Source of the DNA: Verrucomicrobiota bacterium
Lineage (GTDB): Bacteria; Verrucomicrobiota; Verrucomicrobiia; Verrucomicrobiales; DEV007
Reading direction: 5' to 3'
NCBI GenBank assembly: GCA_020630975.1
Contig: JAHDID010000045.1
Span: 1-46,399, forward strand
Length of the DNA: 46,399 nucleotides
Shown here: piece by piece, positions 9,157-42,625 of the stretch
Position numbering within the stretch: the first letter of the stretch is position 1
Layout: each line of letters starts with the position of its first letter
The notes under the pieces: generated by a model
Database searches by the model: none
What the model was told of the DNA's origin: nothing
The model's input: only the letters and a program-made list of their open reading frames with translations
Translations under genes and position numbers: made by a program

Positions 9157-10740
9157 TTATTTCTGACGCATCAGGTAATACTCTACCGAGTCGACCAGTG
9201 CACGCCAGCTGGCTTGGATGATGTTGGAGCTTACGCCTACGGTATCCCAGCTGTCTTTGCCGTCGGTGCTTTCGATGAGCACGCGGGTCTTGGCGGCGGT
9301 GCCCGACTTGCTGTCGATGATGCGTACTTTGTAGTCGCAGAGCTCGACTTTCTCGATGGCGGGGTAGAATGGCACTAGCGCTTTGCGCAGGGCGGCGTCT
9401 AGAGCATTCACGGGGCCGTCGCCTTCGGCTACGCAGTATTCGTCTTTGTCCCCTACGCTTAGCTTCACAGTAGCTGAGCAGGTGTCGTAGTCGTGCTCGC
9501 CGTCGCGGCGGTAGGTGCAGTGGTATTCCTTGAGCTGGAAGAAGTCCTGGTGATCGGCTAGGTGCTTTTCGATGAGTAGGCGTAGCGATGCCTCGGCGGC
9601 CTCGAACTCATAGCCCTGCTCCTCGAGATTTTTTACCGCCTCTAGGATGTCGCGCACCTCGGGGCTGCCTTTCTCTAGCTCGATACCGAGTTCCTCGGCT
9701 TTCATCAGGATATTCGATCCACCGGATAGCTCCGATACGAGGATGCGCTGGCGATTGCCGACGGTCTCGGGGCGGATGTGCTCGAAGCTGTGGGCTACCT
9801 TTTGCACGGCATTCACATGCATGCCGCCTTTGTGGGCGAATGCGGTGGAGCCGATGTAGGGCGCACGGATGTTGTGGGCGCAGTTGGCCATATCATCCAC
9901 AAAGTGGCCTAGGGCGGTCAGCTCGGAGATGTTTTCCACCACGGGGCGGTCCATCTTGAGCTGTAGATTGGGGATGACAGAGGTGAGGTTGCAGTTACCG
10001 ACACGCTCGCCGTAGCCATTGATGGTGCCCTGCACCTGGGTAGCGCCAGCACGGATCGAGGCGAGTGCATTGGCCACGCCTACGCCGGTATCGTCGTGAG
10101 TGTGGATGCCCACTGGGATGCCGAGCTTTTCCATGACCACTTGGGTGATGTCGTAGACCTCGTCTGGCATGGTGCCGCCATTGGTGTCGCACAGCACTAG
10201 CCAGTCGGCGCCGCCTTCTTTGGCTGCGAGTAGGGTCTCCAGCGCGTAGTCGGGCGAGTCTTTATACCCGTCGAAAAAGTGCTCCGCATCGTAGCAGACC
10301 TCGCGGCCGTTTTCTTTGAAGTAGGCGGTGGTGTCGCGAATCATGGCGGCATTTTCCTCCGCTGTGGTGCTGAGCACCTCGGTCACGTGCAGGAGCCAGG
10401 TTTTGCCAAAAAAGGTTACCACTGGGGTACGCGCGTCGAGCAGGGTTTTGATCTGATTATCGTCTTCCACAGCCACGTTTTTGCGACGGGTACTGCCAAA
10501 TGCGGTGATCTTCGCATTTTTCCACTCCATGTCTGCTGCCTGCTCGAAGAAAGCCACATCTTTGGGATTCGACCCTGGCCAACCGCCCTCGATGTAGTGA
10601 ACACCAAATTCATCGAGCCGCTGTGCGATGCGGATCTTGTCCAGAGAGCTGAAGTTCACTCCTTCGCCCTGAGTGCCGTCGCGCAGGGTCGTATCGTAGA
10701 GCTTTACGGCTGGATGGTTGGCGGATGATGTTGGTTTCAT
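9157..10740 (-). CDS. cimA: (R)-citramalate synthase
   Basis: A 527-residue member of the isopropylmalate/homocitrate/citramalate synthase family. It condenses pyruvate and acetyl-CoA to citramalate, the threonine-independent entry to isoleucine synthesis. The TIM-barrel start LYDTTLRDGTQGEG, the IEGGWPGSNPKD segment, the HTHDDTGVGVANAL metal-binding motif and INGYGERVGNCNL are visible. GSTAFAHKGGMHVNAVQK matches the linker, and a C-terminal regulatory domain of about 120 residues follows (VRIIDSKSGTAAKTRVLIESTDG...SVEYYLMRQK). IEGGWPGSNPKD and the 527-residue length favour citramalate synthase of the long type over LeuA. The ATG at 10740 follows AAGAAG. About 250 nt upstream lies an Ile-rich leader ORF, supporting an isoleucine role. 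Confidence 0.9.
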   Translation of the reverse strand: MKPTSSANHPAVKLYDTTLRDGTQGEGVNFSSLDKIRIAQRLDEFGVHYIEGGWPGSNPKDVAFFEQAADMEWKNAKITAFGSTRRKNVAVEDDNQIKTLLDARTPVVTFFGKTWLLHVTEVLSTTAEENAAMIRDTTAYFKENGREVCYDAEHFFDGYKDSPDYALETLLAAKEGGADWLVLCDTNGGTMPDEVYDITQVVMEKLGIPVGIHTHDDTGVGVANALASIRAGATQVQGTINGYGERVGNCNLTSVIPNLQLKMDRPVVENISELTALGHFVDDMANCAHNIRAPYIGSTAFAHKGGMHVNAVQKVAHSFEHIRPETVGNRQRILVSELSGGSNILMKAEELGIELEKGSPEVRDILEAVKNLEEQGYEFEAAEASLRLLIEKHLADHQDFFQLKEYHCTYRRDGEHDYDTCSATVKLSVGDKDEYCVAEGDGPVNALDAALRKALVPFYPAIEKVELCDYKVRIIDSKSGTAAKTRVLIESTDGKDSWDTVGVSSNIIQASWRALVDSVEYYLMRQK

Positions 10741-10799
10741 CTTCTTCTTTGAGTTGTGTCGTCGTGGTGTGGTTAGGGAAAAAACGAATTTCCACCTAT

Positions 10800-10855
10800 T
10801 TGAATAGGGTACAGTCCGGATTCAATAGGGTACAATTTTGATTCAATAGGGTACA
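10800..10855 (+). repeat. 21-bp-phased repeat array, locus 1 (3 copies)
   Basis: Three copies of the 14-bp motif TTSAATAGGGTACA lie at 10800-10813, 10821-10834 and 10842-10855, exactly 21 bp apart. The 7-bp spacers are GTCCGGA and ATTTTGA, themselves similar to spacers at the other two loci. The array lies 60 nt upstream of the cimA start, within its 5' leader. In cimA sense the motif reads TGTACCCTATTSAA. The copy nearest cimA overlaps a CCTATT-CA-AATAGG hairpin. Confidence 0.85.
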
Positions 10856-10877
10856 AAAAGCGATTTTCGGGCTGCTA

Positions 10878-10900
10878 GGTAGTGGGTGGGGTGGTGATTG
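10878..10900 (-). promoter_or_regulatory. Downstream pairing segment of the cimA leader
   Basis: In cimA sense, CAATCACCAC (10891-10900) can pair over 10 bp (one G-U) with GTGGTGGTTG (10974-10983). CCACTACC (10878-10885) can pair with GGTAGTGG (10980-10987). Both compete with the hairpin at 10977-11007 for the same strand. This is a manual pairing analysis; no free energies were computed and no canonical terminator was identified between here and cimA. Confidence 0.5.
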
Positions 10901-10976
10901 ATCCCGGCTCGAGTCCCTTCTTCTTTTTGGCATGCATGACTCTCTGATCGAGAGAGAAAGAAAGACCGAATCGCAA

Positions 10977-11007
10977 CCACCACTACCCGCTTAGCGGATG
11001 GTGATGG
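10977..11007 (-). promoter_or_regulatory. Leader hairpin over the end of the Ile-rich leader ORF
   Basis: In cimA sense CCATCACCATCCGC (the last leader codons) pairs with GCGGGTAGTGGTGG across a TAA loop, which is the leader stop codon. Thirteen of 14 positions pair, two of them as G-U. A ribosome stalled in the leader would melt it and free the 3' arm to pair with 10878-10900. Confidence 0.6.
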
Positions 11008-11050
11008 TCTTCATAATTATCTCGATGATGGCTGCGGTCGCCTGAGTCAT
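10991..11050 (-). CDS. Isoleucine-rich leader peptide of cimA
   Basis: A 19-codon ORF, MTQATAAIIEIIMKTITIR, ends 250 nt before cimA on the same strand. Six residues are Ile (two tandem pairs) and four are Thr, far above chance for 19 codons. The Ile codons used are ATC, ATA and ATT. An internal ATG at 11014 would give the shorter MKTITIR. The end of the ORF forms one arm of a hairpin. Leader peptides rich in the end-product amino acid are characteristic of ribosome-mediated attenuation of branched-chain and threonine operons. No strong Shine-Dalgarno is seen, so translation is inferred. Confidence 0.65.
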   Translation of the reverse strand: MTQATAAIIEIIMKTITIR

Positions 11051-11156
11051 GCGTGCCGGTAAGGTTGGGCAAAATGAGCGGGATGCAAACGGCGATTTCA
11101 CCTCTAACTGCACAAAAAAACACTTGATCGATACATGTCTGTCTTTACTCTATTTT

Positions 11157-11546
11157 ATGGGAAGGATTGTCACCAGTGTCAGAGTTCAAAATGCATTGGA
11201 TCTGGAGTGTCAAAAAGAGTTCACCGCGCTCGTCGATACTGGAGCTGCATACCTATCTCTGCCGGCCGCATGGATTGATGATTTTGGAGACTTTCAGCGC
11301 ATCCGTGAAGAGAGCCTAGTCAATGCTACTGGGGATAAAGTGGTCGGCAAGATAGCCGGACCGGTTGCTATAACGATCAGTGGATTCGAGTTGGTCTATG
11401 GCGATGTGCTGTTCGTCGATATGAAACCGGATGAGAATGGCAATTACGAGCCTCTTCTCGGGTACATTCCGATGGAGCAGTCAAATGTGGCAGTCGATAT
11501 GGTCGCTCACCGGTTGATGTTGGCCAAGTTGGTGGATTTGAAATAA
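11157..11546 (+). CDS. Clan AA retropepsin-like aspartic protease
   Basis: A 129-residue protein from MGRIVTSVRVQNALD. The single active-site triad DTG lies at residues 27-29 (ALVDTGAAYLSLP), followed by a beta-rich segment (GKIAGPVAITISGFELVYGDVLFV) and LLGYIPMEQSNVAVD. The last is the hydrophobic-hydrophobic-Gly motif of the retropepsin fold; such monomers work as homodimers. The frame is open to 11049, but the extra 36 residues lie over the cimA leader and do not resemble the family, so 11157 is used. Small bacterial members are often called clan AA aspartic proteases; their substrates are mostly unknown. It lies 79 nt before the PQQ-type protein. Confidence 0.8.
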   Translation: MGRIVTSVRVQNALDLECQKEFTALVDTGAAYLSLPAAWIDDFGDFQRIREESLVNATGDKVVGKIAGPVAITISGFELVYGDVLFVDMKPDENGNYEPLLGYIPMEQSNVAVDMVAHRLMLAKLVDLK

Positions 11547-11625
11547 GCAGTGTGGTTTGAGCAAATCAGCTGAAACACCATCTACGCCAGTCGACTTTTC
11601 CTCCATTCGCTGCCAAGATACCGCT

Positions 11626-12882
11626 ATGAAATCGATCTGGGGACTCACTCTTTGCCTGTTTCTCACCTGCTCTCTGGCTGCCAATGACTGGCCTAGCTGG
11701 CGAGGGCCGTCGCACACGGGGAGCCTGACTGTAGAGGGTGATTACCCGACCGAGTGGACTCCGGAGTCGGCTGTGTGGCAGGTGAAACTACCAGGCAAAG
11801 GTGCCTCTTGCCCCGTGGTGTGGGAGGAGACGATCTACATCACCGCGCCGGATGAGGGTATCGATACCGCTTTGGCGTACGACGCTCAGGGCAAGCTGCT
11901 GTGGCAGACCAAGTTTGGTCCCGAGACTCCAGGCAAGCACAAGCAACTCGGCACCAGTAGCAATGCCTCGCCTGTCACCGATGGGACCGGAGTTTTCGTT
12001 TACTTCAAAAGCGGTACCCTCGCTTGGCTGGAGATGGATGGTAGCATCCGCTGGCAGCACGATCTGGTCGAGCAGTATGGCAAACAGAAGCTCTACTGGG
12101 ACCAGGGGGCGTCGCCCATTCTAGTGGGCGATCTCGTCATCCTACCGCGTCTGCACGGCGGCGATTCGTGGGTGGCGGCTTTTGATAAAAACACCGGCGA
12201 GATCCGCTGGAAGACCGAGCGCAATATCGAGGCACCAGCAGAGAATGATCACGGCTACGGGACGCCGGTGCTTTTCCAGCATGGCGATCGGCAGGCGCTG
12301 CTGGTCTGGTGCTCGGATCAGCTCAGTGCCTATGCTGTCGATGATGGTTCGCTGCTGTGGAGCTGTGAGGGTTTCAATAAAGAGGGCGCCAAGCTATGGC
12401 CACCTATCGCGACTCCTGTGATCGCAGGCGATATCGCCATCGTCCCTGTGGGGCGCGATGATCGCATGCAGGCACAGGTGCATGCGGTGCGGCTCGGCGG
12501 CGAGGGCGACGTGACTGCTACGCATCGTCTCTGGGAGCGAAAGGACTACGGTGTCTTTGTCTCGAGTCCGGCTCTGTATGATGGCCGCGTCTACTGCCTG
12601 CGGCACAAAGGCAAGCTCGTCTGCCTCGATCCCCAGACCGGTGAGCCGCTATGGACCGAGCAGCTACCGCGTGCAGCGGCTCCCTACTATGCCTCGCCAG
12701 TCATCGCAGGTGGTATCCTCTACGCCGCTCGCGAGGATGGCACGATCTTTTCCGTGCGGATCGGCGAGAGCTACGAGCTACTCGGCGAGAGCCCTATGGG
12801 CGAGCAGATCCTAGCGACACCTACGCCATTCGATGGCCAGCTGCTGGTGCGCACCGAGGGGCATTTGTATTGCGTGAAATAG
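11626..12882 (+). CDS. Exported PQQ-type beta-propeller protein
   Basis: A 418-residue exported protein starting MKSIWGLTLCLFLTCSLAANDWPSWRG, with a clear signal peptide cut after SLAA. The mature start DWPSWRGPSHTG is the usual opening of planctomycete/verrucomicrobial PQQ-binding-like propellers. Repeated Trp-docking blades are visible: LAYDAQGKLLWQTKFG, VAAFDKNTGEIRWKTE, SAYAVDDGSLLWSCEG, LVCLDPQTGEPLWTEQLP. The last strand (QLLVRTEGHLYCVK) closes the propeller. A TTG start at 11557 is open but places 23 residues before the signal peptide. These proteins may be scaffolds (BamB-like) or enzymes; no cofactor site can be assigned. Confidence 0.85.
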   Translation: MKSIWGLTLCLFLTCSLAANDWPSWRGPSHTGSLTVEGDYPTEWTPESAVWQVKLPGKGASCPVVWEETIYITAPDEGIDTALAYDAQGKLLWQTKFGPETPGKHKQLGTSSNASPVTDGTGVFVYFKSGTLAWLEMDGSIRWQHDLVEQYGKQKLYWDQGASPILVGDLVILPRLHGGDSWVAAFDKNTGEIRWKTERNIEAPAENDHGYGTPVLFQHGDRQALLVWCSDQLSAYAVDDGSLLWSCEGFNKEGAKLWPPIATPVIAGDIAIVPVGRDDRMQAQVHAVRLGGEGDVTATHRLWERKDYGVFVSSPALYDGRVYCLRHKGKLVCLDPQTGEPLWTEQLPRAAAPYYASPVIAGGILYAAREDGTIFSVRIGESYELLGESPMGEQILATPTPFDGQLLVRTEGHLYCVK

Positions 12883-27256: not shown

Positions 27257-27291
27257 TGTACCCTATTCAGTCCAGACTGTACCCTATTGAA
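27257..27291 (-). repeat. 21-bp-phased repeat array, locus 2 (2 copies)
   Basis: On the minus strand TTCAATAGGGTACA (27278-27291) and CTGAATAGGGTACA (27257-27270) lie 21 bp apart with spacer GTCTGGA, close to GTCCGGA of locus 1. The array is 58 nt upstream of the glycosyltransferase start. Confidence 0.85.
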
Positions 27292-42548: not shown

Positions 42549-42625
42549 TTCAATAGGGTACAGTGGAAATTGAATAGGGTACAATCCTGACTCAATAGGG
42601 TACAATTTTGACTCAATAGGGTACA
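42549..42625 (+). repeat. 21-bp-phased repeat array, locus 3 (4 copies)
   Basis: Four copies of the 14-bp motif start at 42549, 42570, 42591 and 42612, exactly 21 bp apart. Spacers GTGGAAA, ATCCTGA and ATTTTGA resemble those of the other loci. The array fills the gap between the MutS-like start and the OsmC-like stop. Translated in one frame it yields a false repeat (LYPIES) that should not be called a gene. Confidence 0.85.

Follow-up and report, generated by a model that had tools for sequence, protein, structure and literature searches.

The cimA locus

The window, by which the whole analysed stretch of 46,399 nucleotides from a Verrucomicrobiota bacterium is meant, carries a citramalate synthase gene (cimA) and, upstream on the same strand, a short isoleucine-rich open reading frame (ORF):

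9157–10740, minus strand: cimA, citramalate synthase of 527 aa (TIGR00977, 754.6 bits; cut-off 450).
10991–11050, minus strand: leader ORF MTQATAAIIEIIMKTITIR, ATG to TAA, 19 codons, of which six encode Ile and four Thr.

The composition of the ORF and the identity of the gene behind it had been given in a preliminary description of this DNA, and both were confirmed, the ORF reading from 11050 to 10991. The leader stop codon is separated from the cimA ATG by 250 nt. Citramalate synthase is the entry enzyme of the threonine-independent isoleucine route and has been used in metabolic engineering. A threonine-dehydratase-like match is present in the genome, scoring 266 bits and thus less than the family cut-off of 378.75. 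Given this match, threonine independence is not sustained for the organism, and cimA may or may not be its sole route.

A divergent ORF is listed on the plus strand (11049–11546). Its listed ATG overlaps the leader start codon on the opposite strand, and the true start probably lies elsewhere. The ORF gave no NCBIfam match; it contains the string ALVDTGA, which we take to resemble clan AA aspartic proteases.

Occurrence among relatives

The comparison of regions upstream of cimA took in 30 loci from the window's genus, 34 from the remaining genera of its family and 17 from the order's remaining families. To these were added 79 further named cimA loci, which include some from Verrucomicrobiota. 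A leader was scored as present if an ORF of 8–22 codons with an ATG or GTG start and at least five Ile codons lay 50–350 nt upstream of cimA. Of 56 relatives, 49 had a citramalate synthase scoring above the family cut-off, and a protein search (E ≤1e-100) found it in 68 of the 74 genomes of the family; G003, G009 and G028 were without a usable cimA locus. Locus L164, with the leader MQKTGRIIGSIIIAITHD, was left out of the presence counts because its cimA start had been misplaced, and L060, whose leader is identical to that of L022, out of the named set. L021, a near-copy of L020, was excluded from the swap test and from the composition, switch and helper-pairing analyses. The CimA motif was not found in L170–L172, L184, L186, L187, L190 and L194–L196, where the gene start was placed near the end of the sequence.

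Ile-rich ORFs precede cimA in 23 of the 30 genus loci (expected from shuffled sequences: 0.00), e.g. MTRAAIICAIIRKAIIIR, MDRTISRSIIINAIIIG and MNRIFIISITSNAITIIG. They were found in 22 of the 34 loci from other genera of the family (expected 0.28), e.g. MLIEKAIADFSIIIAIIRD, MSERIIIRSILIAIIQD, MQRRIIGIISSIIAG, MQLSIRIPLIIIFIA and MHLFERIRISIESIAIIPA. One of 17 loci in the order's other families (expected 0.02) and none of the 79 other named loci (expected 0.38) carried one. Relatives had been proposed as a test of the leader, with Ile codons to be conserved in any order; the family supports it with 45 of 64 loci against 0 of 79 elsewhere. Lowering the threshold to at least four Ile admits four of the 17 other-family loci, all from family f4: MASQPAIFGIRIIIGLLCA, two similar peptides and a 13-residue peptide in L038. 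No leader was found in six of the 30 genus loci (L028, L032, L034, L035, L042, L043), in all four g3 loci, or in the single g2 and g24 loci. Family rows without a leader are L009, L039, L172–L175, L191 and L193; L191 and L193 carry MPLVNSIIIG, with three Ile only.

These counts bear on the most trivial explanation, a chance ORF without function. Many sites were read in the scan, and the window ORF by itself is just a 3-in-5000 event: an ORF of 8–22 codons with at least six Ile arose in three of 5000 dinucleotide-preserving shuffles of the 300 nt searched, the mean best shuffle reaching 1.21 Ile. Set against the 23 genus loci and the 22 from other genera, where shuffles predict practically none, chance is so improbable as to be negligible.

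Short ORFs rich in branched-chain residues also precede cimA in L116, L130 and L133 (Desulfobacteria, Deltaproteobacteria and Syntrophus), reading MQPQAITSTVGIIAVVVGIIISLLPAGGLVMA in L116 and MHYRNLNTIIGIIIGIISPGNSGA in L133. They are possibly independent cimA attenuators.

Composition of the leader peptides

The peptides are mostly unrelated in sequence and vary in length between genera, while Ile is kept. Among 56 chosen leaders, Ile accounts for 313 of 937 codons, compared with 5.0% in the accompanying cimA frames. Val takes eight of the 937 (8.1% in cimA) and Leu 53 (8.4% in cimA). As the leaders were picked for Ile, the low Val and Leu are the informative figures, not the high Ile. The scarcity of both residues argues for sensing of isoleucine rather than for a hydrophobic peptide, and a general branched-chain leader was ruled out, Leu and Val not being enriched. 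ATT supplies 184 of the 313 leader Ile codons; in the cimA frames it supplies 199 of 858. The leaders end with TAG (26), TGA (18) or TAA (12). Both the Ile and the Thr codons of the window ORF had been pointed out beforehand; relatives conserve Ile but not Thr.

A small hydrophobic protein acting in the membrane would likewise be short, Ile-rich and translated-looking. Such a protein would hardly be expected to change sequence and length from genus to genus, to avoid Val and Leu, to end in the loop of an RNA hairpin, or to have a Leu-rich counterpart at leuA (both described below), and this explanation is regarded as very improbable.

Leucine-rich leader at leuA and the ilvB genes

The leuA gene of the window's genome (L002, G000:C25; PRK03739, 790.9 bits, cut-off 455) is preceded by MNLSVANLSLDRLGLLTTDCRLGLRAQ, with eight Leu and no Ile. 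A short ORF with at least five Leu and zero to two Ile lies before leuA in 19 of 21 genus loci (L002, L215–L234). These leaders are typically 23 codons long, e.g. MNSTTRSTLLPLSALLLGRVLLG or MKITTLSTKILVLPLSLELVLLG, and 15 of the 21 loci reach p ≤0.05 against shuffles. Of the same 21, L218 lacks a Leu-rich ORF and L231 has four Leu. Judged from its sequence, the leader before leuA is probably a second attenuator, reading leucine. With an Ile leader at cimA and a Leu leader at leuA in the same genus, leader content tracks the end product of the pathway.

No common leader was seen before ilvB among the 12 of 14 genus loci scanned (L203 has just 21 nt upstream). Short ORFs rich in Ile, Leu or Val occur there in one genome each (L204, L207, L211), none of them shared. 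In place of a leader ORF, the ilvB upstream regions (L201–L212) are AT-rich, with GAAAATTGCGATTTT-like strings recurring by eye.

Predicted promoter and transcript start

A putative promoter lies directly upstream of the leader:

11061–11088, minus strand: predicted sigma-70-like promoter, TTGCAT (11088–11083), 16 nt, AACCTT (11066–11061); scored as TTTGCA-17-AACCTT.

The window ATG follows the -10 element by 10 nt. The -35 element is fair and the -10 element AACCTT poor; the latter is clearer in relatives. A consensus promoter scan of the window gave no site above threshold. Promoters were scored, blind to the position of the start codon, in 57 leader loci, which also served for the hairpin, duplex and terminator tests; having been picked for an Ile-rich ORF, they carry no information on its presence. 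The start codon lies 7–11 nt after the best predicted -10 element in 34 of the 57, with L018 and L019 (no usable promoter) and L015 (site inside the ORF) counted as misses. The -35 element reads TTGTCA in 12 of the 57 and begins with TTGC in 22. Transcription usually begins about 7 nt after the -10 element, and the predicted spacing points to a leader that is leaderless or nearly so. The transcript probably lacks a 5' UTR and would start at the ATG or a few nucleotides before it. A Shine-Dalgarno-like string occurs within 20 nt before the start in just one of 22 window ORFs examined.

RNA segments and alternative folds

The transcript can be divided into segments that are predicted to pair in alternative ways:

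11044–11057, minus strand: segment 0, GGCACGCATGACTC, at and around the leader ATG, pairing with segment L (inverted repeat, 93% over 14 nt; MFE fold).
10993–11010, minus strand: segment 1, the final Ile/Thr/Arg codons, 5' arm of the 1:2 hairpin (MFE fold, z -3.3).
10964–10990, minus strand: segment 2, GCGGGTAGTGGTGGTTGCGATTCGGTC, partner of segment 1 or 3 (MFE fold, shuffle tests).
10950–10963, minus strand: pyrimidine/U-rich tract directly after segment 2 (T count against background).
10929–10942, minus strand: segment L, GAGTCATGCATGCC, lying between 2 and 3 and complementary to segment 0 (inverted repeat, MFE fold, swap test).
10878–10923, minus strand: segment 3, partner of segment 2 once segment 1 is covered (duplex -31.4 kcal/mol, below all 300 shuffles).
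10892–11035, minus strand: match to covariance model R1 (42.7 bits, E 1.1e-7).

From 5' to 3', the order in the genus is segment 0, the Ile codons (segment 1), the stop codon, segment 2 (GGTGATTGCGAATCGGTC), the U-rich tract, segment L, segment 3 (ACCGAATCGGGATCACC), a C-rich, repeat-bearing stretch, and cimA. The last Ile codons form the 1:2 hairpin, and the leader stop codon sits in its loop. Compared with shuffled downstream sequence, the hairpin averaged a z of -2.61 over 24 genus loci, -3.72 over three g17 loci and -5.08 over three g15 loci. Mean z stayed above -1 in g16, g17b, g18b, g18c, g22, g23, g25, g28, g29 and f4d. For the competing 2:3 duplex, 30 of 57 loci gave p ≤0.05, as did the medians of seven of 20 groups; in the genus its stem is so conserved that covariation hardly tests it. 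RNAalifold returned 1:2 on one genus alignment and 2:3 on another, a difference that fits the expectation for competing folds.

In 55 of 57 loci the 0:L pairing did not outperform shuffles; the exceptions were L171 and the window, whose value lay below all 300. As a family-wide helix it was rejected on this test; for the genus it is retained on a swap test, in which pairing among 23 loci scored 370, against 311 ± 15 after loops had been swapped between species (p 0.0001, a value affected by shared ancestry and not a formal probability). Complementary changes within the genus include ACAGGGA:TCCCTGT, GCATGG:CCATGC and TTCCGGCA:TGCCGGAA. In L006, L008 and L036 the loops of other species pair equally well or better.

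Covariance model R1 was built from 20 genus sequences, the window not included. It gave exactly one match each in 24 of 33 genus genomes, that of the window among them. Across the order, 29 of 288 genomes were matched, comprising these 24 and five in other genera of the family. All 29 matches lie directly upstream of cimA by coordinates, in G166 by the CimA motif. Rfam gave no match in window positions 10000–12000 at E up to 1, and only a tRNA match in seven relatives at E up to 0.1; a T-box or another known RNA family was ruled out on this ground.

Simulated ribosome stalling

In a switch model, the bases covered by a ribosome on an Ile codon were masked and the expected pairs recomputed. The simulated ribosome lowered the genus mean for 1:2 from 11.2 to 4.2 pairs and raised that for 2:3 from 7.8 to 14.7. 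Placed on the stop codon, it left 2.0 pairs of 1:2 and 7.8 of 2:3; as 2:3 is then still partly formed, the OFF state would need release of the ribosome. The combined switch score of the genus was 26.8, compared with 9.5 for shuffled downstream sequence. All 12 shuffles were beaten by 26 of 56 loci, i.e. by 17 of 23 in the genus, 3 of 3 in g17, 3 of 3 in g15, 1 of 2 in f4b, and the single g17b and g21 loci. High scores were obtained for g20 and g27, yet not above all 12 shuffles. The score hardly exceeded shuffles in g28 and did not exceed them in g18, g16, g29 and f4d, all of which bear a leader; either these four groups have a switch of a different kind, or the segment limits fit them poorly. 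In g22, 2:3 forms regardless of the stall. Mutually exclusive folds that depend on ribosome position were computed for the window's genus, g17, g15 and g21.

Candidate OFF steps

A classical 3:4 terminator before cimA was sought in the window, in the genus alignments and at a shared place in the 57 leader loci, and was not found. Positions 10700–11250 of the window contain no terminator-like site, and a reading of the genus alignments showed no U-run after segment 3. Terminator-like sites do occur in 22 of the 57 leader regions (7.8 expected), at differing places and in related sequences. We lean towards premature transcription termination as the OFF step, brought about either by Rho on a C-rich, G-poor stretch or by release at a U-rich tract.

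With Rho, the sensor would be the same: the 1:2 hairpin would leave segment 3 and the C-rich stretch free for loading, and a stalled ribosome together with 2:3 would block it. The C/G ratio before cimA is 2.30 in the genus and at least 2 in 10 of 16 other groups. It is 0.94 at 61 other ORFs of at least 200 aa, drawn from L003–L036, some of which lie outside the genus, and 1.13 at 22 chosen window ORFs, cimA included. The ratio falls, however, to 0.75 in g22 and 1.10 in g15; C-rich upstream stretches are also seen at two other window genes, and the stretch before cimA is free in either state. Two Rho-like genes are present in the window's genome (G000:C79:169166-170263 and G000:C128:9265-10548, the latter split into two matches), but both fall below the family cut-off. 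The window without a terminator-like site and segment 3 without a following U-run accord with Rho, and this is a plausible reading, if somewhat short of a probable one.

In the second route the sensor is again the same, and 1:2 would itself act as an intrinsic terminator or a pause hairpin where the U-rich tract follows segment 2. It would be assisted by a helper pairing in which the opening codons of the leader bind the end of segment 2. The tract, with at least five T in 9 nt, occurs in 25 of 29 loci of g1, g17, g20 and g21, compared with 12% of background windows; L006, L008, L022 and L036 have fewer than five T. By reading, the 1:2 stem stops about 8 nt short of the tract. The helper pairing exceeds in sum all 500 shuffles, and it reaches 7 bp in L164 (AAGACCG:CGGTCTT), with a swapped version in g21. 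It is clear just in a subset, however, and with a swap test p of 0.08 it was dropped except as part of this route. Release at the U-rich tract is kept as possible but rather unlikely.

The fold might instead govern access to the cimA start or decay of the mRNA. The missing classical terminator would suit such control of translation or stability, as would L020, L021, L025 and L027, where segment 3 starts just 44–55 nt before the cimA ATG. In the remaining located genus loci this distance is 67–170 nt, and we think control at this level unlikely.

The gap between leader and cimA also contains a repeat that is found genome-wide:

10800–10855, minus strand: three copies of a 21-nt-spaced repeat (TGTACCCTATTGAATC...).

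The repeat forms arrays of two to four copies, which in the window lie between listed ORFs (10800–10855, 27257–27291 and 42549–42625); of eight further genome loci examined, one was inside a long ORF. The pattern TGWACCCTRTTGAA has 435 copies in the genome, its reversed form none. Repeats resembling ACCCTGTTGA stand before cimA in many genus loci, and a similar inverted repeat with a T-run lies upstream of ilvB in L208 and L210. A literature search on such 21-nt-spaced repeats gave no result. The repeats between leader and cimA could conceal a second promoter.

Proposed mechanism

Very probably, citramalate synthase is under the control of a leader-peptide attenuator whose signal is charged tRNA-Ile. 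Comparison and computation show the ORF, the conservation of Ile, the predicted promoter spacing, the leuA counterpart, 0:L pairing within the genus and, for the genus as well as several sister genera, folds in which 1:2 competes with 2:3. From these we infer that the leader is translated and responds to isoleucine; the ON and OFF states are assigned by pathway logic. Transcription would begin on the leader ATG or just a few bases ahead of it, and a ribosome would translate the Ile-rich peptide. With ample isoleucine, the ribosome would reach the stop codon and leave, so that segment 1 could pair with segment 2 and, in the genus at least, segment 0 with L (OFF). With scarce isoleucine, it would stall on the Ile codons and cover segment 1, and segment 2 would pair with segment 3 (ON).

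A fuller version is put forward tentatively, as a combination that is less likely than not. It would be a leaderless, Ile-only cimA attenuator in which 0:L hides the start codon after the ribosome has left, and which is gated without a classical terminator, via Rho or release at the U-rich tract. It would be family-wide, its sequence almost wholly replaced between genera and its logic kept, with a leucine-reading sister at leuA.

If the attenuator reading is right, ribosome-mediated attenuation reaches into Verrucomicrobiales in a form that is without the classical terminator and probably leaderless, and one genus holds separate gauges for isoleucine (cimA) and leucine (leuA). The strong sequence divergence between genera lets the working parts be read by comparison.

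Comparison with known systems

Ribosome-mediated attenuation had been proposed from the leader of the window. The Ile leader in the family, the stall-switchable folds and the Leu leader at leuA bear this out; the classical 3:4 terminator that belongs to such a system was not found. Leader control of cimA had also been called little described, and a search of titles and abstract openings, with few subscription journals covered, agrees: it found nothing on a cimA leader or on attenuation in Verrucomicrobia.

In the thr, ilvGMEDA and trp attenuators of E. coli, a short ORF rich in the end product precedes the biosynthetic gene, and the position of the ribosome sets alternative folds. The cimA leader shares the end-product-rich ORF, the ribosome-set folds and a 1:2 hairpin overlapping the ORF. 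In contrast to these systems, no classical 3:4 terminator with a U-run was found; the leader probably lacks a 5' UTR, precedes cimA and conserves Ile alone.

Closest in arrangement among the described motifs is the ilvB-II motif, the ilvBNC attenuator of Corynebacterium, as far as the consulted parts of its descriptions go. Its branched-chain-rich uORF is usually 15–17 aa long, and each genome has a single copy in a constant position. A terminator/antiterminator/antiantiterminator model has been given, in which the terminator has experimental support and three branched-chain amino acids act (PMC10272879, PMC11857589). The short uORF, the single copy and the fixed place recur here; the differences, within the same parts of these sources, are Ile alone, cimA as the gene, Verrucomicrobiales as the host and no terminator found. 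In the ilvB-OMG and ilvB motifs, according to the parts consulted, ilvB is preceded by variable uORFs in which branched-chain residues and Thr abound, ilvB-OMG occurring in several phyla (PMC10272879). The present leader resembles them as a variable branched-chain-rich uORF upstream of a branched-chain gene, but, going by the same parts, differs in preceding cimA, and no Rfam family matched it.

Leader peptides also act in Rho-dependent attenuation, as in tnaC and mgtL. As there, ribosome position on a short ORF would set the access of Rho; unlike there, a role of Rho at the cimA leader is suggested by base composition alone. The features that count as new are the missing classical terminator, the probable leaderless start, the 0:L pairing in the genus, the leuA counterpart, and the family-wide presence of the leader with near-complete sequence turnover.
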